64,000 nucleotides of DNA, from positions 8,363,725-8,427,724 of the forward strand of contig CM034129.1 of the NCBI GenBank assembly GCA_019914995.1. The letters are read 5' to 3'. The notes under the pieces were generated by a model that was not told the DNA's origin, searched no databases, and worked only from the letters and a program-made list of their open reading frames with translations. Within the stretch, counting starts at the first letter, position 1; each line of letters starts with the position of its first letter. The DNA is from Acanthochlamys bracteata (lineage: Eukaryota; Streptophyta; Magnoliopsida; Pandanales; Velloziaceae). Of the stretch, positions 1 to 53,726 are shown in pieces. The position numbers and the translations under genes were made by a program.

Positions 1-2951
1 AATTAGAATTTCATACAAAATTAAAATAATAATTAGTTTAGTTCACGTGAATATCTAATTTGATAGATATTAGGTTGAAGCTCAACTTCACCAGCTTTAT
101 CATTTTTCTTAAAAACAATTTAAATAAATTTGGAAGAGGACTTGGGATCTAGAGCTAGAAAATGTTTGTGAAATCAATGTGTGGTTCTTGGAAGTTGAAA
201 GATCAAAAGTTTTTTTGTTTTAATTTTTATTTTTATTTTTTTGTTTATTTTTTTGAAGTGTTTGAAAATATTTATAAAAAATATTTTTATTTTATTTAAA
301 AAATAAGCTTATATCTGAGTTAGAAAAATAAAATATAAAATTTAATGTAAAAGTTTTTATATTTTCTAAAATTTCTAAATAAATTATATTATAATATTAT
401 ATAAATTTTATTGAAAATGTGAATTAAAAACAAAAGAAATACTTTTTCATAAAGCACTCAAAATTCGGTCTAAAGTCCGTTATAGAGAAGTATATTATGG
501 TGTCTGCCACATGAAATTTGCAAAGTAAAAAAAGCTATATATTTCTATTTATTTAAAAAGTGTAAAAATTGTTTGGAGCTATTTTTTAAAAAAATCAAAA
601 TATTTTAAAAACAAATTTATTATTAAATTTTTTTATAATGTATAATTTATATATTTCAAATTGAGAAAATAAATAAAATATCACAAAATTTTTTTTTAAA
701 TAAGTAAAATATTTCAGAAGTATTTTCAAATATATATATAGGGAACTTCAAATATTTTATTTATTATTATTTTTTTAGAAATAAAAAATTTTACTTATTT
801 TTAAAATATCTTTTAAATTATAAGAAAATAAAACTAATTAAAATAAAATATATTCAGTCAACTTTACGTCTTCCTTTTAATTGCTCTTTGAATTTTGCAC
901 TGCACAGTCAAAAGTCTTTACAGAAATCTAACATAAAGTCATCAAAAAGTAAAGAAAGACAGCAAAGAGAAAACCTTTCTAAGATAAGGCAAATAGTCTC
1001 CCATGCTTTATTTATGGATCAACGATAACGAGTATCAAATTAATTAATCAATAACGAGATAGGAAAGTTGTCATTGGGGTTTTAATAATAATGAAAGAGA
1101 TGACTGATTGCTTTTCTGGCAATTGTTGAATCATGTTACGAGTAAAAAGAAGTGAATCTTCTCACATGGGAATCAACAATTCCTAAATTTCAAGGCAGAG
1201 AGTACTATAATATTTGTTTTCACTGAATGCAACTGTTTCAGTTAACAAGGATAGTATGCTATCTATCCTGTCTTTATTTGGTCCAACTCTGACTTAAATC
1301 TCAATTGGCATCAATCAATAAATATATTTAATTTTTAAATTTATTTTTAAAAATATAAATTTATTTCAAGATAAATACGTACTTAAAAGTATATTTTAAT
1401 TACTCAAGATTCATTTTTTTAGTAACTTTTGGTTTCAATTTTAATTATTGTATTTCAATTTATTCAAAATTTATCGAATTTATTTCTAATCTATTTCTCA
1501 TCGAATTCAGTTCAATCAAAGTCAATTTTATAAAATTTATTTTTAATTAATTAAAATACACTCTAATTTAATTAATTCTGACTAGTAGGAAAGGGTCAAA
1601 AATAGTGTTAGTTGAAAATGAGTTAGCTAATTTAATATACGAACTAACTACTCGCTTTGAAGTGGTCTTAATAATATACGCTTTTTCATAGTTTCATGCT
1701 AATAAATATATATTCATATATATAAATATTATTATTTAAAAAGTTTTATCATTTTAATATGAAATTCTGAGCTAATATTAGAGTAGATATTCAAGCATAT
1801 AAGAGATTGCTAGGCAATGCTTTTTATCTTTATTTACTAGTTTATTTAAAAATTTAGTTTTTCTAAACTTCTACAATATTTTTTGTTAAAAAATTTAAAA
1901 TTTGAAAATGTAGAACTGAATCTTCATGCATATAATTTTTTATTATCTTTAAGTGTAAATAATTAAATTATTTCTTAGAAAGCTTTTTATTTTAAGCACT
2001 TTCAAACGAACCCTAAATATTTGAAGAGGATTATGTTATGATCACAACTTCTTACTTCTTAGACCTGACTTCATTTAGAGTATATTGATAATTGCACATT
2101 GAAATTAAAACTAAATTAAACAAACTTTCAAAAACTTGAATTAATATCATAGAATTTTTTTAAACTGTTAGGTAACATGTAGATGTCCAAAAATTTACTA
2201 TTAAATTCTGTTCGAAACAGCTCAATTCTAAATGCTCTAAGTTGCAAATGTCACGGAGGAAAATGTTTATATTTTAAACATATTCCAAACATTTGTTCTT
2301 TTATCTCTTTTTATTTTTTTATCTATGTTAAAATTTATTTTAATTTAATATTTGTTTTTATTTAATATTTTCTATTTAACACATGTTATTTTTTATATAA
2401 TAATTTATATTTATTTAATTTCAAATGATTTAATTGGTAGAGAAAAAAATAAAATTATATGATTATTTTTTAAATTTAATAATTGATATAATTTGTTAAA
2501 TTGTATATAATATTGTTTAGATTATATAAAAAAATTAATTTGAAAGTTATATTAATAATGCTTATTTTGAAATTATATTATTAAATTTATTTAAAATAAT
2601 ATTAATAAAAATTAGATTAATATAAATAAAAATAGCGTTTGAGTTATACAAAAACTACTATCGTTACTTATCTATTTATCCATTTTCAAACATAGTTAAC
2701 TTATTATTTTTATTATATATTCAAATATCGCAAAGTTAAATAACTATTTTTTTATATCCGTACTCTTATTTTTATTTTTTACCTATATATCTAAATAACG
2801 TTAGGATGCATTTTGTAGAACCGAATTTATGAGAACTTAACATAGGAGAATATAAATTTTATGTTTGGTTCGTCAAAATAGAATAATATGATTTTTGTAT
2901 GAAATGATTCCAAAAAATAAAAAAAGAAATTGATCACCATAGAAGAAGGTA
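1..2951. other. AT-rich intergenic DNA, no gene seen
   Basis: This stretch is strongly AT-rich with long runs of A and T. The open frames in it are short, of low complexity and unlike any family I know. I see no gene, RNA gene or bounded repeat. The last three bases (2949-2951, GTA) are the left target duplication of the CACTA element that follows. Confidence 0.6.
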
Positions 2952-2984
2952 CACTACTTACAAAATGACCTTCACCTATTGACA

Positions 2985-3205
2985 AAATACCGACTGAAAT
3001 AATATAGTCGGTAAAGTATCAAATACCGACTACATATAATTTAATCGGTAATATTTTTAAAATTACCGACTGAAATTTATTTTAGTCGGTAAATTACCAA
3101 TCGAATTTATTTTAGTCGGTAATTTACCGACCGAATTTATTTCGGTCGATAATTTACCGACCAAATTTAATTTAGTCGGTAATTTACCGGCTGATATTTT
3201 AATCT
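2985..3205. repeat. Left subterminal repeat array of the CACTA element
   Basis: About eight copies of ACCGACTGAAAT-like and AGTCGGTAAATT-like motifs alternate in both orientations, each pair able to form a short hairpin. In CACTA elements such arrays bind the transposase (TnpA-type protein), so this is the likely cis-acting end. Spacing is roughly 25-50 bp. Confidence 0.8.
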
Positions 3206-3888
3206 CAGTCTTTAGTTAAGCTCGTCTTTCCTATTTACTGTTTTTTTATCTGTTTTTTCCTTTTCCTTTTTCCTTTCCTATGCCTACTTCCTACATCGAC
3301 GATCTCTTTCGTGAGGCATGCCCATCACATCCGACATCTAGCATTCTTCTCTACCCTCTGGCTTTCATTCTTGTCGTCTCTGGCCGTTGCAGTCGTTTTT
3401 TTCTTTTCCTTCTTTCTTCCCCAACGCCTACTACTCATAGGAGAAAACCCTAAGTTTCGCCGGACTGCTTCGCCTGCCTTCCGGCCATGCCTAGCAACTG
3501 GAAACTCTTTCCTCATAATACTAAAGTTTTCTCCTCTTTCAATTTCAATGAATTGTTGCTCTGTTGTGTGAATTTATGGATTGTTGAGTGTTGATTTTTT
3601 CTATTGATTTTGTGAATTTATGGATAGTTTAGCTTTTATTGAATTACTCAATGTTGTTTAGCTGTGTCATGGATGTTTTACCTTGAATTTTCTTGCATAA
3701 ATCTAGTGATACGTGTTGGATGTCCTATATATGGAAATAGTGAAAGTTGCGGCAGAATTGAGGGAGATGATATTGAATTTTGTAGTCGAGGATCTAAAAG
3801 TGTTGGAGCAAATGAGAAGCATCTTTGTAGCTTCGCGACTCTGATTCTTCATAAGGACAATGTCAGTGAGAAGAAGGTGGAAGGCAGG

Positions 3889-3962
3889 ATATGCTTAGAA
3901 TGCTGATCAGAAGCTCAGTAAATTCATATGCTTAGAATGCTGATCAGAAGCTCGGTAAATTC
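3889..3962. repeat. Two-copy 37-bp tandem repeat inside the CACTA element
   Basis: The unit beginning ATATGCTTAGAATGCTGATC occurs at 3889-3925 and again at 3926-3962 with about one difference. It lies in the captured interior of the transposon. It looks like a recent replication-slippage duplication; no function is suggested. Confidence 0.75.
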
Positions 3963-4764
3963 TGATTTCATCAGCTTGCATATATGTGTCACTCCTTTTT
4001 GCATTACATATTTACTCCAGTAAATGATGGATGAAATTTGAAACAAAGGATAAAGCTCTTGTTGTCACAGTAGGTCATCAGTTTCAGGTAAATGTTATGT
4101 TTTCTACAGGTTAATTCATCAAAAGAAATAACACATACTTTGTTCTGATTTTTTTGTACAGTACCAGAAATAAATATAAATAATCTTGAACTCTGATTTT
4201 TTGGCAAGTTAATAACATACTAACATCAACAGTTTTCATATAAGCCATACTATAGAGAGTAGTCCTTCACCAAATAATCACAACATTGTTAATGTCAATA
4301 TTAGATCAGAGATTTCTCATGTCAACATAAGATAAGATTTTTCTCCTTTGTTCATCACATCTAGCAATAGCAACTGATCAGAAAATCATTTCATTTTTTC
4401 ATGAAAACATTATAGCGACATGCCTTCTCTGTTATACTATTGTCTATCTACGCACGAGGTTTTGATGCACTCCAACTTCAGCATGATTGCACTTGAAGAA
4501 GTAGTATTCTTTAGATTTTGCATATATATCATAGTCCTCTAAAAGATTTTTCCCATATAAGCTTACATATTTTATCAAAGGGGTTCTTTTAAGAATTGAC
4601 ATATCTTTACATATTTTATCGAGCATCTTAACAAATTTAGAATTATATTCACTATTTGATGTTTTGTTCATATTATTTTATCCTCAAACAGTGTCAAGAT
4701 TTTATATTTTTTAATAGATATTATTATCATTATTTGGATCAAAGTTGTTATTTACTTTATGCAG

Positions 4765-4920
4765 GGACAGCAAGCTCACCAAACTGCTTCTTGATTCCTT
4801 GGGTGGGAGAACAAATACTTGTATAATAGCTACTTTCACCTTCAGTACATTATCTTGAAGAAACTCTTAGTACCTTAGATTATGCCCATAGGGCAAAGAA
4901 TATTAAAAATAGGCATGATG
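4765..4920 (+). pseudogene. Kinesin-5 motor-domain exon fragment captured by the CACTA element
   Basis: An intron-like acceptor (ATGCAG) at 4759-4764 is followed by codons reading RDSKLTKLLLDSLGG, then TNTCIIAT, and, in a second frame, VHYLEETLSTLDYAHRAKNI. These match the conserved end of the kinesin motor domain (switch-II helix region through the HRAKNI neck), closest in my memory to the plant kinesin-5/BimC type. The shift of frame between the two blocks (about two bases missing after the IIAT block) means it cannot encode the motor as it stands. The preserved splice acceptor argues for capture of genomic DNA rather than of a spliced transcript. There is no ATP-binding P-loop nearby, so only a C-terminal piece of the motor was taken. 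Confidence 0.85.
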
Positions 4921-5104
4921 TATTTATGTAATGTTTGCCCTTCATATTTTCTTACTGTTATTATGTAATTGATATTTATGTAATGAAAATATTTATATAA
5001 TGAATATATAATTATGAATTTTAATGAATATTATATGTAATTTTGATGAATATATATGGATTTATTATAAATTTAGTACAAATTTTATAACTAAAATTAT
5101 GATG

Positions 5105-5540
5105 GATAAATTAAAATTATCCACTGAAAGTTCAGTGAGTAAGTCGAATTACCCACTGAAATTTCTAGTAAGTAAGCTGAAACTACCCACTGAAAGATTC
5201 AGTCGGTAAATTAAAATTACCCACTGAAAGATTCAGTAGATAAATTAAAATTACCCACTGAAAAATTCAGTCGGTAACTTTTGAATTATCCACTGAAAAA
5301 TTCAGTCGGTAAATTTTGAATTACCCACTGAAAAATTCAGTCGGTAAACTTAAAGTACCGATGAAAAATAACAGTCGGTAATTTACTGTATATACCGACG
5401 AAATTTTTCGTTTGATCAATAAGTCGTTTAGCAACTAGTCGTTGCCGACTAAATATCGACTAACACATATTCAGTTGGCAATTTGTGTTACCGACTGATT
5501 TGTTATCAATACCGACTGAATTTTGCAGTCGGTAAAAATT
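5105..5540. repeat. Right subterminal repeat array of the CACTA element
   Basis: A run of about ten motifs of the form CCACTGAAA and TTCAGTCGGTAA recurs about every 45-55 bp, ending in ACCGACTGAATTTTGCAGTC just before the right terminal repeat. It mirrors the left array but is longer and more diverged, suggesting local amplification. Confidence 0.8.
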
Positions 5541-5558
5541 CAATTTGTAGTAGTGGTA

Positions 5559-7204
5559 GTAATTTGGATTCCCTTATTTATGAGGATCATCTTTTTTTTT
5601 AATAAGAAATCATCCTTATTCAATTTTCTTTCTTTCTTCCTCTTTGTTTTTTGCTTTTATTTTTATTCTTTTCTTTCAACTTTTTATGATATTGCAACAT
5701 AATCAACAAAAACTTTATCCTCTTAAAGTAAAAGTTAATGTCTGACGTTTTATTTTGTTATGATGGTTAATTTGGATTGATGTATAACATGGCTTGATTA
5801 TTAATATACTATATAGAATTAGGCATTTGTTTAATTTGGATTAAATGAGTTAGTCTTTTATTGTTAATATAAGTAAGAGATATTTTAGTAAATTTGTAAT
5901 AAAAATTTGAGAATGTTGAATTCAAAACAAACGACATAATGGATAATTCCAACAATCAAATTGATAAAAATTAAAATTCTCATAAGTATGATTACCATGA
6001 TATTATTAACCTTAGGATTGAGTTGGAAATCATGGTTTTGAAAAAAAAAAATTCTTTCGGAGAAGTGCTTTTATGACTATAATTTGGGCTTTTTATTTTT
6101 TTCTTATTTTCTTGGAACTATATGGTTTGGTTCCTCACCGGAGATAAAAAAGCACTTTAGGAGTAAAACAATAAGGGAAGATAGTTTTTTCAAAATCACT
6201 CCCTCAGAAGTTCTGTTTTTAGGGAAACCACTCTCCAAACTTATTCCAAACAAAATTTTGTGCTAAAGGAGGGGCTACTATACTTGAAACTGTTTGAAGT
6301 GTCTCGTACCTGTTTCATGAAGTTTTATAAATCAGATCTACAAAACTAAATAAATGTTTGATAAAATTTTGGTTAAGATGAACAAGATGATTCTTTTGTC
6401 AGAGAAAGATAAAAAAAGCTGCATATCAGTAGAAAGTTAAAAACGAGAGCTTCTAAATTCCACCTTCTAACTTGGAATTTGATTATTAACCGTCACAACG
6501 GTTCTCTGAAACTTTTCCTATCTCCAAGAGGTTTATCGTGTTGCCTCTTCTCTTGAAAGAAAGTTTGGATGATAGTTTGGCCTTTTAACTTGAATCTTAC
6601 CAAAACTTTACAAAAAATTGCATAGAAACCTCACACACCATAGTCTTTTTAACAAAAAGTTCATCAAATCCATCGGTCCTTGAAGCATCTCCTCCAGTTT
6701 TTTACTACTTATGCCAGCTTAAACAAATAAACTTCAATGTTCACAAGAACCTTACGAAAACCATCTCATCCCGGGCTATCTTCTACAGTTCCTAGTTATG
6801 GAAATTCCAACATATTTTGTACAATGAAGATACAATTTCTCTTCCAAGAAATTTTATCTCTTAACCTCGTACAAACATCAAAAAGAAAAAAAAAAACACA
6901 ATGTTGCAACCAAATAATTTGGCCATTTCTGTTAAACAAGTCCTATTTTTTTTAATTAGAAGCTTAGTAAGGCAACATTCGCTAGGTAATAAACATAAAG
7001 TGTAATGTCGGGGAACAAGACGCTTCCTTCGCTATGCAAGAACATATTAACATGATAATAACATTAGGCCAATGTTGCTGCAGAGAGCATATATACATGC
7101 ATTATCAAAGTACCTATACATTATTAGCAACACATGCCTGATTGTTCCAACTTCAGTAAAGCTTGTTAACATTGGCTATGTGTAGCCCTCTCACCTGTCC
7201 AAAG
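5559..7204. other. Intergenic DNA and 3' region of SGF29
   Basis: No coding exon is visible. The part nearest 7204 should hold the 3' untranslated region and polyadenylation site of the minus-strand SGF29 gene. The open frames at 6084-6266 and 6737-6955 lack any family similarity I recognise and are treated as chance. Confidence 0.5.
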
Positions 7205-10200
7205 TTATTGGCGATGGCCTTCTGGAAGTGGGACCACCTTATGGAATGGTACAAGCTTCCTGGGCAATGAGCCATCTTCATCATCGTCATCATCAAACTC
7301 AAGTGTATAGCTGCATCAGAGAAATGGTGTTAAACAGTAAACCTATAAACAACGACATGCCTGGTTGATTGAAAGTATGAGATGAGGAAGTGAAATTAAT
7401 ACTTGCAGTTCCAAGTGAAACGAAGCAAAGAGGGTAATCTAATTTCAAGAGGTACTGTAACAGCTTAGGGTACCAGTAAAAGTACTTGCATTTTTTGCTT
7501 CAGTAGTATCAGAAAATGTTAAAATGTTGCCAACAATACAACAAAACCTGCTGGACCCATAAGCAATGCAAAGACAAATAACTGGGGAAAAGAAAGTAAA
7601 TTATAATAGAAATAAGCACTTACTCATCAGACTTCTTCTGAGATTTGCACGCCAGCAAGAACATCACAGAGAAAGGGAATACAAAAAAAAAAAAAAAAAA
7701 AAAAAAAGAAGTCAGTTCAAGTTTAACAAAACAAGCACCAAAAACTAAATATTCGCAAGGGAATAGTACCTTCAGCAAGCAAAATGTTATAGCTATATTC
7801 ATATACTCGTTTGGAATAATAAAGCAAACTGTAGAACCGTAGAGACTTCAAATAGAAAGTTTGCTGAAGGTTCCAGAGTTTATTTTACATGGATGTAGGA
7901 GCAACTTCTAAGGCATAAACAAAGAAGAATAATGGCACTATAAAGACTGCATATAACTAAATGATTTTACCACCAGATACTCTGTCTTTTATTAAACTAA
8001 ATTTTCATACATTTCCATTCATGGAACATCCCCTAGGTGCAGTCCACTTGTATCAAAGCAATATTCTTATATGAAGTCTCTACATTATGAAGTTGAGAAA
8101 AGAGAAACTTTTCTCAACTATATGTCAAAGTTCCCCAAACTACACAGTTAACTAAACAATAGTTATCCAAGACAGTATCTGTATAATTGTCATAGGAAGG
8201 AATTCATGCAACATATATCTCCTAAATATGTAGTCTACATGGAAGAGCAACCTTTTGAAATGAATACGAACTTCAGTTTTTTTTTTTTGGACGGTCAGAT
8301 TGAGGAATTTGTTAAGTACCACTCATTAAATATGAGAAGGCAGTTCAAGCTCATGTTGGCAAAAGTGCTTATGCGGTTGCCTGCTGACACATAAGCCCAA
8401 CTACACCCCTCAAAAGATGAAAAACTGGAATTCAACGCATGAAACCTAAGAACCCACATACTTGTAAATAGAAGGAAAACTAAATGGCACCAACAACATG
8501 GACTAACTATATCAAGGTTACCTTCCGATGACCATTAACAACAGTTGCTTTATATAAAGCTGTAGTCCCAGGATAGACAGCCAAGACATGCGTGCCTTGC
8601 GGAAAATCCTGTGCACTAGAAGGATCGTTTTTCTTTGGGAAAGGACGAATGCGTGTCATTGGAAGCTTATACTTTCTGGCAACATGTGTACAAAGGATCA
8701 AATTAGCAAAACATTCATCGAGACCAACAAAATGTCGATATGTTAGCAAAACGTACATAAATAAATAACAGAGGTTAAAGCTGCATTTAAAGCTTACCAG
8801 ATAAAACACATGAAATCCGCATATATACAAAACACAAGAAATGCAATAAATACCATTCATTAAAACGCACGGAACGAAATGAACATAAGAATGTCATGCA
8901 CAGGCCTCAACTTGGATAAATAAATAAGAAGGTATATGGGTTCAAACTCAAATAAATAGTAAATATACATGTACTTATATCTGGCCATTACTTAAGAGTA
9001 GGACAACATGCGAAAGGCTTCAACTGGACAAAGAAAGACACTTTATGAACTACTAGCCTCTTAATCATACATCCAGCTGTATGTAACGGTCATTCAAGCA
9101 TAGGGTAGCCGTACATTTAATAAATGTGAAAGCAGCTTAAGCATTGAAAATGAAGCAAGTTACAAAACAAGTACAGCCAAATAAAGTATGTCCAAAAGAT
9201 AAAATGATGTCATAGCAAATATCTATAGTTCACGCTATGATAAGAAAGCAAACTTGTCATGCTCACAAGCAAGTTACAACACAAGCTTCTTGTAATAAGA
9301 GGAGCTATTAGGATGAAAACGCTCAAAGAAATGCAATCTGATTTTGTTACGTCCAATAACACAGGAAGTTAGACAACCCCCAGTGTGCTTGTACAATACC
9401 CACTTGAAATGCATCAAGAATTAGCTGCCAAATCCTTTGAACCTTTTTTGTGAACAATATACTGAAAAATGATTCCTTTTTTAACATATAAGGCAAAATT
9501 GGTGAATGCTTGAATGACTTACACAAGCCTTTTGATCTCAAACTTGTACAAGCCAAGAGATACTATAGATTGTCTGGAATGGTCTAGTATATAGGGTTTG
9601 AAGTATTGATTATACTATAATAAAATAGAGTGCGGATAATCCTGCATTAAAGATTGAAATCAATTATCATTACTTGCCACTTGCGGATGGTTAACGAGAT
9701 GCAATGCTTTTTCATTGTTGAATGGCATGATAAGAAATGTGGATTACCATAACCCATCATGTAATCATCGATATCCCATTTTTAAAGGCACCGCAACTCA
9801 AAAATCCACGAACATCTACATCATCCTACGAGTGTGATAGAAATAAGCTACACAAATCTTAGACGAGATGGTCTCAAGTTTAAGAAGGTTTAGAATAACC
9901 TCGATAGAATTTGTCTAAAATAGTAGCAAACCTTCGATGTCAACTACCACCAAGAGGTCCTACAGGTTTAAAACCTGGATTTATATAGGCAAAAGATCAC
10001 ATGCTTTTTCTTAGAACTGGTGTTGTATGTTAGGTCAAAATATTAATATACATTACAAGCTTATCATTGATACATTTCTAATTGACAAGATCTTATTTAA
10101 TTCACCAACTTCAAAGCTTTATTTTATCTTCTATATAGCTGTCTATAAATGTTATAGGTAGCATTTTTATTCTTATTTAGACTCCAATCTAACATAAATG

Positions 10201-36341: not shown

Positions 36342-36418
<77 letters not shown>
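36342..36418. repeat. Uninterrupted (GA)38 tract in the DUF707 core promoter
   Basis: About 77 bp of perfect GA dinucleotides end some 33 bp before a TATA box. GA repeats in plant promoters are bound by BBR/BPC GAGA-binding proteins (family knowledge), so it may regulate the downstream gene as well as being a microsatellite. The RE-rich and SL-rich frames across it are artefacts. Confidence 0.9.
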
Positions 36419-50207: not shown

Positions 50208-51545
50208 TCAATTACACAAAGAGGTGACGAGAGATTTAGGACTTCCCCAAACTGGCAGTTCGAGGAGAGCTTGTGCTATTCTCTCCTCCTCCGCATTACA
50301 AATTGAATCTACATAATCACAAAGCTCTGACAGCTTCTGCAGCACCACCTCCTGAGCCCCTGCCTGCAACCATAGTCAACAGACAACTTAAACCAGATAA
50401 CTAAATGTCATATTGCTTTGCTTTATACAAGATAAAACAGATTAACACAAGGTGATGTTAAGTTCTTTCAAGAGTATTTTTGAGAGCTTCTCATGAGGTC
50501 AGATTTCGTTTTCAATGTTATGACTTAAATAACACAAATACAAAGGTACATTGAGTGCATTCATACATGATATATACCAGACAAGCATTTTAATAAATTT
50601 GAAAATAATTTGCAGGAGTTCTTCTTGAAATAATTTAGCTCAGAGACATAAATCTAAGTGAAACCTAGTGCTTCACCACAAAACAATCCCAGGCTGTTTC
50701 AGTGAAACCTAGTCATGACACTTCAACTATCCCAAGATAAACGGAATTCATGAACTACTCACAACTTATAAATTTCCGTTATAATGAAATAGCAGGAGTA
50801 ATCTAAATCTCCCAAAATCTAACTACTCAAACTTTAAAAATGGGGCTCTGAAATCCTTAATTCACAACTAAAATAATACATTCAAGTAACCTATCAATTT
50901 CCCTCTGAGGAGGTCATCAAAGAGTTTACTTTAAAAACCTACAACCATAACACTTAGGTAGTGATTTGAGTTTATAACCCTCTAAGTTTCTGTGTTTTCA
51001 ACTACTCTAAACCCCCTAATCTCTAAACTACTCCAAATACTTGTTTCTCGCTAATAATTATCTGTAAATATACAACGTCTCAACTGCTCTACTAACCCTA
51101 ACTTAATTTCAAGATCTGCAAAATTTCGTACCTGGGAAATAAGGTCATCGAGCAACCGCTCGCTCTCCTTTGAAGAAGAAGAAGAAGTCATACTTTCTCC
51201 ACCAGAAGCAGCTGCTGAGCACGTCGTCGTCGGTGGCGGTAGAACAGAACTACCAGCGACGATGAGCGAAGAAGAGGAGAGATTCTCCCATTGTGCGAGT
51301 TCTGTTTTATATCGATCTAGGAGGGAAAGAAGACACCGCTTCCGGTGAGCTCCTTGCTTGAGCTGGCGGTGTAGTTCGGAATCTGTGTCAGAAGAAGGGA
51401 TTGGTTGGCCGGCTTCAGCGGGAGTATCTGGTTCACGGCCGCGGCGACGGCGTTTGTAGACGAATCCGTTATCGTTGCAGACCTCCCACTGGTCGTTGTC
51501 TTCGTTTTCGCCGCCGGGTGTTGCCGCGCCGGCGGAGGCCGACAT
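50208..51545 (-). CDS. Uncharacterised plant protein, two exons, 189 aa
   Basis: Exons 51545-51132 and 50363-50208 join in frame to 189 codons plus TGA. I do not recognise the family. Residues about 19-36 read QWEVCNDNGFVYKRRRRG, ending in a basic run that could be a nuclear localisation signal. A hydrophilic middle (RKRCLLSLLDRYKTELAQWE) may form a coiled coil, followed by a Ser/Ala-rich low-complexity stretch. The C-terminal exon is acidic and helical (VLQKLSELCDYVDSI, then AEEERIAQALLELPVWGSP). The exon composition, GT-AG intron and conserved-looking N- and C-terminal blocks support a real gene. It is head-to-head with the TruB gene, 368 bp between start codons. Confidence 0.8.
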
Positions 51546-51913
51546 TTCCCGGTAGTGTTCCTTCTTTTTGCGAGAGAAACGCTTTGAATTTTGTGATTAG
51601 CTGAAGCGAGTCCGCTCTCACTGAGTTAGTTGTCTTTAAACACGTGGGCCACGCAATGGATTGTCGGGTCGGGTCTTGTTTTTGTTCAAACAGGAACTAA
51701 CCCGAATAAACTATCCGGGCAGAAATAACCGATCCACTGACTGCATTTTGAAACGAATTTGGTTCCTTCCATTTTATATTCGACACTTCCCTACCAACCC
51801 ATGATTGTGTTCGGGTATGGTTGGGTGAGAAAAATAACACTCACAGAGAGGCTCTGTTCTTCTTCCTTTCAAAAAAATCAAAACCCAAAATTGAATTGAA
51901 TTGAATTGAAAAA
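51546..51913. promoter_or_regulatory. Short bidirectional promoter region
   Basis: Only 368 bp separate the start codons of the divergent 189-aa gene and the TruB gene, so both 5' untranslated regions and promoters must share it. It contains CACGTGGGCC at about 51642, a G-box core (CACGTG) directly next to a GGGCC element, the latter common in promoters of housekeeping and translation-related plant genes. No obvious TATA box. Confidence 0.6.
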
Positions 51914-53726
51914 ATGTTCACCTCCAAACTTCATCACTTTCTTCTTCTCCATCTCCCTCTCCCTCTCCGGCGCCACTTCTTATCCACCTGCTCCACTCCT
52001 TACCCTCTCTACTATGAACTCGTTAACTACCGTCCTCCCCGTTCTTCTCGCCGCCGTCTCCCTTCCTCTGCCACCGCTGATATAAGCAGCAGCAACAACA
52101 ACAAGGAAGATTTAGAAGAATCTAATGGCGATACCGAGCCGATGGACCGCGTTAAGCGTAGGTACTATCGGAAACGGGAGAAGAGAATGTACGGTGGAAC
52201 AGCTGCCGATGATGATAGCTCGAATTCGAAGGACGAGGGTTTTGTTGAATTGAAGCCGGAAATTGTTGATTTCCCTCGGCTTCATGCAAGAGAAGAGGAG
52301 CTTTATTTTTACGATGCGTTTGCTTTCCCTTGGGAGAAGGATAAGCATTATCGTATGGTCTACCAGCTTGAGAAGAAATATTTTCCTGAGCAGTCGTTGG
52401 ATAAGGCTTTTGTTGACCCTGATTCTACTGAGACGCCTATAGTTAAAAAGAAGAAGAAGGCAGGAGTGAAGGGAAAGGACACGGGTAAGAGTGGCATTGA
52501 TGAAGCAGAGAGAGATGAGAGAGGGTTGGTTTTCTTTGATGATGAGAAGGAGAAGGAGAAGGAGAAGGTGAAGACTGTTAGTGGTTTTGGGGATGTGGCA
52601 CCGAGAAGTGATGTGATGGAGAGGAAGGTGGAGGATCTCTTTAAGTGCCTTAAGAAGGTGCCTAGTAGAGCCAGTGGAAAAAAGAGTGCAGTTGTTGGAT
52701 TGGAGGAAGGTGAAAGAGAGCCGTACCTTATGATGCAGAAGACAGAGCTTCCACCTAGGTGGGATGGGCCATCTGGCACAGTTGTTCTTATTGATAAGCC
52801 TAAAGGTTGGTTACTCTTAGAAAGAATTTTGCTTTATAGTATGTCCAGCTTGAAGTTCATTTACCTCTACATGTACCCCTTGCTGTTAGTTTAGCAGATT
52901 TACAGGTCATCTGTTGTCAGATATAAGTAGTAACTGAAATGCCCATGGCTATTATATATGCCTCTGATACTACACTACTATATTAAAATGACTTGCCTAG
53001 TTTGCAGGATGGACTTCTTTTACAGTTTGTGGGAAGTTGCGGCGCTTAGTCAAAGTGCAGAAGGTGATTTGTGTGTATGCTAATTTGTTTGATAGTCACT
53101 AATACATGCATTCTAATAATCAAATTATAGGTTGGGCATGCTGGTACGCTTGACCCTATGGCAACTGGATTGCTGATAGTTTGTGTTGGTAAAGCAACAA
53201 AATTGGTGGAAAGGTAGATCCTGGAGCCTTTTTCTCAGTTTAAGCTGTGCGAGTGTTACTTTTCATCCAGCAGATATCTTAGCTTTTGAACCTAGTAGAT
53301 ATAAATTCCAGAGAAAAGCACTCTACTTGTAAAAGTAAAATTTGACTGGTTAATAGCTATGTAGAGTCCAATCACTCCTGGGCATTACACTTGGTTATTT
53401 TATTTTTATTCCTTTTTTGAGAAGAGAGTGGGGGGGTGGTGGGTAGGGAGAATCTTCTTGCAAACGATTTATGATTTATTTTTGTATGCGTGGATATGAT
53501 GTGATTTGGACTTCAACTAAACATAGATGTGCTAAGATGTTGTGGAAGAGTGTCACTATACAACAGTGTATCTTGTTTATTTTTGGTTTTGTAGCCAACT
53601 AATTGCATTACAAGCAAGACATCGCGTGTCTGTATTATTTATGATCTGTGTGAAACAGTTATGTGAATTGTAGATGTTTATGGAACCTGATGGTTAGAAC
53701 ATTTGCAAATATATTTTGTGTGAGAT

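Follow-up and report, generated by a model that had tools for sequence, protein, structure and literature searches.

How CACTA transposons take up pieces of host genes is still argued, the contending proposals being excision of tandem insertions and gap repair. The closest described systems are the Pack-CACTA and Pack-TYPE elements of Arabidopsis, rice and maize, for which PMC8903248 reports the combination that we also find here, of CACTA termini, a target duplication, host DNA from multiple loci and no transposase; the orientation of the captured pieces is not treated in the passages of that paper on Pack-CACTA. Tgm-Express1 of soybean is likewise a CACTA element that contains exon and intron segments of unrelated genes (five in that case), and its pieces are spliced as exons of one transcript and hence presumably lie in one direction (PMC1947982). 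The Tpn1 family of Ipomoea nil, as described in PMC5105172, comprises non-autonomous CACTA elements with conserved termini and host genic sequence in the interior, with some chimeric transcripts. In Chenopodium, captured gene fragments lie in the 5' region of the CACTA elements named Jozin, which have transposase domains and carry their captures upstream of ORF 1 (PMC8978399). For the Pack-TIR elements of animals, it was proposed that most single-copy cases arose by template-switching gap filling with microhomology at the junctions, and a fork-switching model was put forward for the multicopy cases (PMC8277862).

The element family described here is a well-documented example of this known phenomenon and not a new kind of element. 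Tgm-Express1 is one element in one gene, whereas here we have a multi-copy family with layered captures, known from sequence alone, and in contrast to Jozin the interior has been replaced. Compared with the published Pack-CACTA and Pack-TYPE cases, the order of capture and its footprint can be read from sister copies, because intermediate states of the family survive within one genome, along with breakpoints common to several copies and repeats at the junctions. The series of intermediates, the junction repeats and a record of captures in sense only may be new. Our literature search returned no paper linking CACTA gene-fragment capture with kinesin and ATPase.

The window analysed here is a stretch of 64,000 nucleotides from Acanthochlamys bracteata (C4:8363725-8427724; genome assembly of 195.5 Mb in 557 contigs). 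Positions 2952-5555 of the window are a non-autonomous CACTA element of the Pack-CACTA type with a GTA target duplication. The features of the element, in window positions, are as follows.

2949-2951, no strand: target-site duplication GTA, left copy (duplications are perfect in all seven exact-ended copies)
2952-2967, + strand: 5' terminal inverted repeat CACTACTTACAAAATG, from the ends of the element and of its relatives
2984-3197, + strand: 5' subterminal direct and inverted repeats of the ACCGACTGAA / TCAGTCGGTA type, from repeat and motif scans
3213-3611, + strand: GC-richer, pyrimidine-rich 5' block (17 genome matches, 10 copies aligned)
3567-3581, + strand: 15-nt exact repeat, first copy, within the 5' block (repeat scan)
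3611-3625, + strand: 15-nt exact repeat, second copy, lying on the junction of 5' block and oxygenase piece, offset 44 nt (repeat scan)
about 3624-4550 (right edge approximate, from alignment), + strand, sense: captured 2OG-Fe(II)-oxygenase-like piece, intron-exon-intron, 70-73% to C13:845k
3889-3962, + strand: 37-bp tandem duplication within the oxygenase piece that the C16 sister copy lacks
4563-4576, + strand: junction repeat between the oxygenase and H+-ATPase pieces, exact over 14 nt here and over 23 nt in the C16 sister, offset 44 nt (repeat scan)
about 4578-4690 (right edge approximate), + strand, sense: captured plasma-membrane H+-ATPase remnant, exon end and intron, 86% to C6:5640k over 4578-4668
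4607-4620, + strand: other copy of the oxygenase/H+-ATPase junction repeat, within the H+-ATPase remnant (repeat scan)
4707-4949, + strand, sense: captured kinesin-5 piece with 58 nt of intron, exon 4765-4919 and 30 nt of intron, frame broken, 90% to C16:215708-215952
5107-5385, + strand: 3' subterminal array, tandem repeat with a 34-bp period and 8.2 copies
5541-5555, - strand: 3' terminal inverted repeat, from the element ends
5556-5558, no strand: target-site duplication GTA, right copy, from the element ends

The 5' end at 2952 reads CACTACTTACAAAATGACC and the 3' end, whose last base is 5555, reads CACTACTACAAATTG on the reverse strand. The terminal inverted repeat consists of seven exact bases, a 1-nt indel and then ACAAA, with CACTACT at both ends. 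Within the 5' subterminal repeats there is an array with a 30-bp period (3063-3189), and the motif GTCGGTAA(N0-20)TTACC occurs seven times in the window, each time within the element, against 0.02 occurrences expected. A CACTA-type inverted repeat, a 3-bp duplication and direct plus inverted subterminal repeats are the marks of the CACTA superfamily, and the ends, GTA duplication and subterminal arrays on which the initial annotation had based the limits 2952-5555 were borne out by sequence inspection and by the repeat and motif scans. In keeping with the Pack-TYPE class, the element contains host coding-gene DNA with findable donors (kinesin-5, H+-ATPase and 2OG-oxygenase-like), and none of its stop-to-stop frames reaches 150 aa.

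Copies with the same ends were found elsewhere in the genome, as the initial annotation had anticipated in calling for a count. Exact CACTAC and GTAGTG ends stand at the expected places in seven of the 14 family members examined, the window copy included, and all seven are flanked by perfect 3-bp duplications (GTA, AAG, TGA, AAT, ACT, TGA and CCT); these are minimum copy numbers, since the copy search scored 40 of its 241 candidates. A short copy at C9:1810k has an altered 5' end (CGCTAC) and flanks, TCT and TCC, that agree at two of three bases. Six relatives (C11, C9a, C9b, C17, C19 and C9d) could not be delimited at both ends, and a scan of 29 loci, most of them single-ended, revealed no further end pair with equal flanks. 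The identical structure at separate loci with differing duplications indicates that the element was multiplied as a unit by transposition.

The genome contains 153 matches to Transposase_21. Among the matches listed none lies in the window, none falls in a family member (checked by eye against the examined elements) and none marks an autonomous partner with this family's ends (40 of 241 copy candidates scored). In this the family differs from Tpn1, which has a putative autonomous partner, TpnA1 (PMC5105172).

The kinesin motor exon and splice acceptor described in the initial annotation were confirmed by alignment to a host exon, which places the acceptor AG at 4763-4764 and the donor GT at 4920-4921. 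A DNA search with 4640-4960 gave 11 matches (all 11 candidates scored), eight in members of the element family and three in host kinesin genes (C16, C18 and C10). The C16 gene is a multi-exon kinesin-5 gene with motor exons in order plus downstream exons, and it matches 4707-4949 at 90% through the upstream intron, the exon and the downstream intron, so a host gene that has intron sequence upstream and downstream of the exon in common with the element, the proposed check on capture at the DNA level, does exist. Assignment to kinesin-5, which had been marked as inference, is supported by the best PDB matches (kinesin-5/Klp61F/KIF11) of both the host exon peptide and a 24-residue peptide from the window.

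A 2-bp deletion near 4834 breaks the kinesin frame and is common to seven of the eight copies; the C17 copy lacks it but has other frameshifting indels. Because seven copies carry the same frameshifting deletion, the kinesin piece reads as an ordinary broken passenger that encodes no motor, with a frame evidently broken before most copies spread. On the strength of the shared frameshift we also rejected the kinesin piece as a functional exon.

In a tree without outgroup, built on the whole kinesin segment, all eight copies are nearer to the C16 gene than to its C18 paralogue. In the intron parts the copies show 3 to 12 differences from C16 in 69-73 sites and 16 to 22 differences from C18 in 62-66 sites, and C16 and C18 differ from each other at 15 of 66 sites. 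The longest kinesin piece, that of the C17 copy, matches C16 at 86% over 792 nt and C18 at 77% over 611 nt. An exon-only tree with two outgroup kinesins, with branches of about 0.013 or less, gave no resolution in favour of C16: the outgroup lies beside C16 and the copies nearer to C18. Because this tree does not join the copies with C16, the donor assignment rests on the introns, which support the C16 gene as the likely donor and a capture after the C16/C18 paralogue split.

As an account of the captures, the initial annotation held for the kinesin piece but was incomplete, since three host genes are represented and two captured pieces had gone unreported. A search with 3612-4577 matched only the element itself, the C16 sister copy and C13:845k (all three candidates scored). 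The C13 match spans an exon and introns and lies downstream, on the same strand, of a DIOX_N exon (Pfam, E 5e-11). The captured exon itself has no Pfam match, and the label "2OG-oxygenase-like" is suggested by the neighbouring DIOX_N exon. Because the match is just 70-73%, C13:845k may be a paralogue of the true donor. For the second piece, the host gene at C6:5640k carries E1-E2_ATPase (Pfam, E 2e-11), and the fuller piece of the C10 copy matches plasma-membrane ATPase 2 (PDB, E 3e-4); it is this PDB match and the host locus that point to an H+-ATPase. A Pfam scan of one X-masked frame each from the middles of the C10, C12 and window elements gave no P-type ATPase or oxygenase match, and the C12 frame in the same scan matched DUF3675 (E 0.0016).

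The GC-rich block at 3280-3560, whose origin the initial annotation had marked as inference, turned out to be common to the family. GC content is 0.446 at 3260-3575 vs 0.303 in the remaining element. A genome search with 3260-3575 gave 17 matches (all 17 candidates scored), 16 of which adjoin terminal or subterminal sequence of the CACTA family; the match at C1:9160159 is tied to the family solely through a common serine-carboxypeptidase piece. An alignment of 10 of the 17 copies showed that the pyrimidine-rich stretches are conserved. This indicates that the 5' block is the family's own 5' region and no private capture of the window element, and given the position of 16 of the 17 matches beside family ends we rejected the block as a second captured gene. 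The block may still descend from an ancient capture in the ancestor of the whole family. As a function for the block we propose that it would serve as a transcribed leader. A bacterial promoter scan of 3000-3300 was uninformative, the host being a plant.

Eight family members, including the window copy, bear the kinesin piece, and their junctions can be compared in donor coordinates. The fullest structure is found in the C58 and C9b copies, with the 5' block, H+-ATPase sequence from about 440 to 1200, kinesin 7705-8127 and the 3' region; the 3' end of the C9b copy was not found. The C17 copy passes from the 5' block to kinesin 7345-8127 and has no H+-ATPase match. Four copies (C10, C11, C9b and C58) share the junction from the 5' block to H+-ATPase base ~440, and C58, C9b and C10 share the junction from H+-ATPase to kinesin at ~7703-7705. 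In C17, C9b and C58 the kinesin piece ends at 8127 and the following sequence is also common, and the 3' part of the piece is missing in C10, C11, C9a, C16 and the window copy. Of all the copies, only those of the window and C16 were seen to carry the oxygenase piece. A piece of a CRM-domain gene lies within the H+-ATPase piece of C10 and C11, with a short match to it in C9a; in the C10 copy (C10:5565500-5571000, positions 2560-2860 of the extracted L040) there are two non-adjacent pieces of this gene (C19:2466k).

The most likely order of captures in the lineage of the window copy appears to be kinesin first, H+-ATPase second and the 2OG-oxygenase-like piece third. That kinesin preceded H+-ATPase is suggested by the C17 copy, which has kinesin without an H+-ATPase match, together with the shared 3' breakpoint, so this step is drawn from one copy, whose termini were not found. 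The H+-ATPase piece probably replaced the 5' part of the kinesin piece, and the oxygenase piece appears to have replaced most of the H+-ATPase piece. Helitrons transpose by a rolling circle, differ in their termini and make no target duplication. In maize they resemble the present family in gaining several gene pieces stepwise over successive transpositions (PMC3288121).

A second subfamily (C12, C14, C9c, C9d and C19) carries Ca-ATPase pieces. In its C12 member (L049, C12:3690000-3696000), a piece of a DUF3675 gene from C8:4422k lies within the Ca-ATPase piece, at 2702-3477; we take DUF3675 to be of the RING-CH type. Two further groups carry paired pieces in sense, DEAD-helicase plus serine-carboxypeptidase (L018, 292-1251) and LEA-like plus filament-like (L013, 236-1315; also L016). 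The C19 relative is split at 3030-5660 (L053) by a 2.6-kb highly repeated sequence, with 2221 first-look candidates, which is probably a nested transposable element; being highly repeated, this middle was ruled out as a further capture and excluded before orientations were counted.

Twelve elements were scanned for exact repeats of at least 15 nt lying within 200 nt, with low-complexity sequence excluded. This gave nine rows, or seven distinct repeats after homologous ones were merged; no repeat of at least 15 nt occurred in 120 Markov-1 sequences, a simple control, and six of the 12 elements have no repeat of 15 nt. Six of the seven distinct repeats are no farther than about 30 nt from a junction (a capture junction in four cases and a deletion junction in two), and the seventh is the 37-bp tandem duplication of the window copy. 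The capture-junction repeats are found between the 5' block and the oxygenase piece in the window copy (offset 44), between oxygenase and H+-ATPase in C16 (23 nt, offset 44; 14 nt exact in the window copy), between the 5' block and H+-ATPase in C10 (offset 88) and C11 (offset 87) and between CRM and H+-ATPase in C10 (offset 30). The deletion-junction repeats lie between kinesin and the 3' region in C11 (offset 15) and within the Ca-ATPase piece of C9c (offset 88) and C9d (offset 87). At either end of the oxygenase piece the repeats (3567/3611 and 4563/4607) show an equal offset of 44 nt, and two other junctions have offsets of 87-88 nt. Gap repair in which the template is switched is expected to leave exact repeats of this kind at junctions.

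Taking together what we observe directly (termini, duplications, donor-like host genes, shared junctions, a shared frameshift, junction repeats and sense orientation), we consider it very probable that this is a Pack-CACTA family mobilised in trans, which acquired genomic pieces of host genes by stepwise, nested capture, most likely through template-switching gap repair, and in which kinesin is a broken passenger. Both termini, the subterminal repeats and the conserved 5' block would have been kept, and the interior replaced piecewise by host genomic DNA, introns included. Each newer piece would have entered nearer to the 5' block, trimming part of the older piece. The pieces were most likely copied in while breaks inside the element were being repaired, by synthesis-dependent gap repair with template switching, and mobility would need transposase supplied in trans.

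Our preference for template-switching gap repair comes from the short exact duplicates of flanking sequence that sit at several junctions, and these exact repeats appear to favour that mode of repair over excision of tandem insertions. In the latter model, developed for Arabidopsis Pack-CACTA, two nearby insertions lose their facing ends and move as a hybrid enclosing chromosomal DNA; it is the published proposal, and similar Pack-TYPE cases are known from rice and maize (PMC8903248, PMC13317346). It would sit well with the half of the scanned elements that lack a 15-nt repeat. However, the break in kinesin at 7345 falls within a host exon and would require insertion into the gene itself, and the nested pieces have the older piece on both sides (CRM in H+-ATPase in C10, DUF3675 in Ca-ATPase in C12). 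The repeats of 15-23 nt at the junctions resemble templated insertions and are not predicted by the tandem-insertion model as summarised in PMC8903248 and PMC13317346. We thus regard excision of tandem insertions as an unlikely source of these elements.

That the kinesin and partner pieces form a new spliced gene or regulatory RNA under selection, with the 5' block as first exon, seems to us very doubtful. The window copy retains both splice sites of the kinesin exon, the captured pieces are in sense, and Tgm-Express1 splices its captured pieces into chimeric transcripts (PMC1947982), but a frame broken by one deletion in seven copies and by other frameshifts in C17 speaks against this reading. 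Divergence from the C16 gene is higher in the exon than in the introns in six of the eight copies (K2P in the window copy: exon 0.097 over 155 sites, intron 0.042 over 73 sites), contrary to a spliced gene, and lower in two (C9b, 0.098 vs 0.189; C17, 0.105 vs 0.136), as such a gene might show; because the segments are short, this contrast is weak evidence either way, and the solid evidence is the frameshift. Had the kinesin exon been captured several times independently, this would explain why the C17 piece is longer than the others and lacks the shared deletion. Against this, C17 has the 3' breakpoint at 8127 and the sequence beyond in common with C9b and C58, seven copies have the 2-bp deletion in common, and the H+-ATPase/kinesin junction also recurs among copies, which makes repeated capture extremely unlikely. 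Capture by stepwise gap repair, followed by spread of the broken piece, remains our preferred reading.

The orientation of the captured pieces was scored by comparing the donor coding strand at the host locus with the strand of the element on which the 5' block is leftmost. All ten donor genes identified in the family have their pieces in the sense direction with respect to the 5' block (sign test, two-sided, ~0.002), as do all seven with firm coding strands (sign test 0.016), these tests assuming that the ten capture events are independent; the count leaves out the middles of L026, L028 and L030 and the C19 repeat. The firm strands are those of kinesin, H+-ATPase, oxygenase-like (via the neighbouring exon), CRM (two exons joined), Ca-ATPase, carboxypeptidase and helicase. 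The DUF3675 match is below the curated cut-off (21.6 vs 24.3 bits), and for the LEA-like and filament-like donors the Pfam matches are weak (E 0.01 to 0.05). For Pack-MULEs and Helitrons the question of orientation has been taken up before. Judged by titles and the opening lines of abstracts, our search found no paper on an orientation bias of CACTA captures.

One possibility, which we put forward tentatively and hold to be rather less than likely, is that the family acts as a directional capture cassette, in which pieces enter behind a 5' block that is conserved and transcribed, and only those in the sense direction persist. Antisense pieces would be purged, since transcription of the element would silence essential donor genes, or alternatively sense pieces would be favoured, since their splice sites would let the transcripts be processed. 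Recurrent break repair behind the block would then leave the templated repeats, two at 44 nt offset and two at 87-88 nt. Should a complete census uphold the sense-only pattern, either selection or a mechanism linked to transcription from the 5' block would be indicated.

Across the window as a whole, no Rfam match attained the gathering score of its family. Stop-to-stop frames of at least 150 aa number just four in the window, all at 51051-52894, and the two of these that were scanned have no Pfam match. A perfect GA dinucleotide repeat of 38.5 copies occupies 36342-36418.
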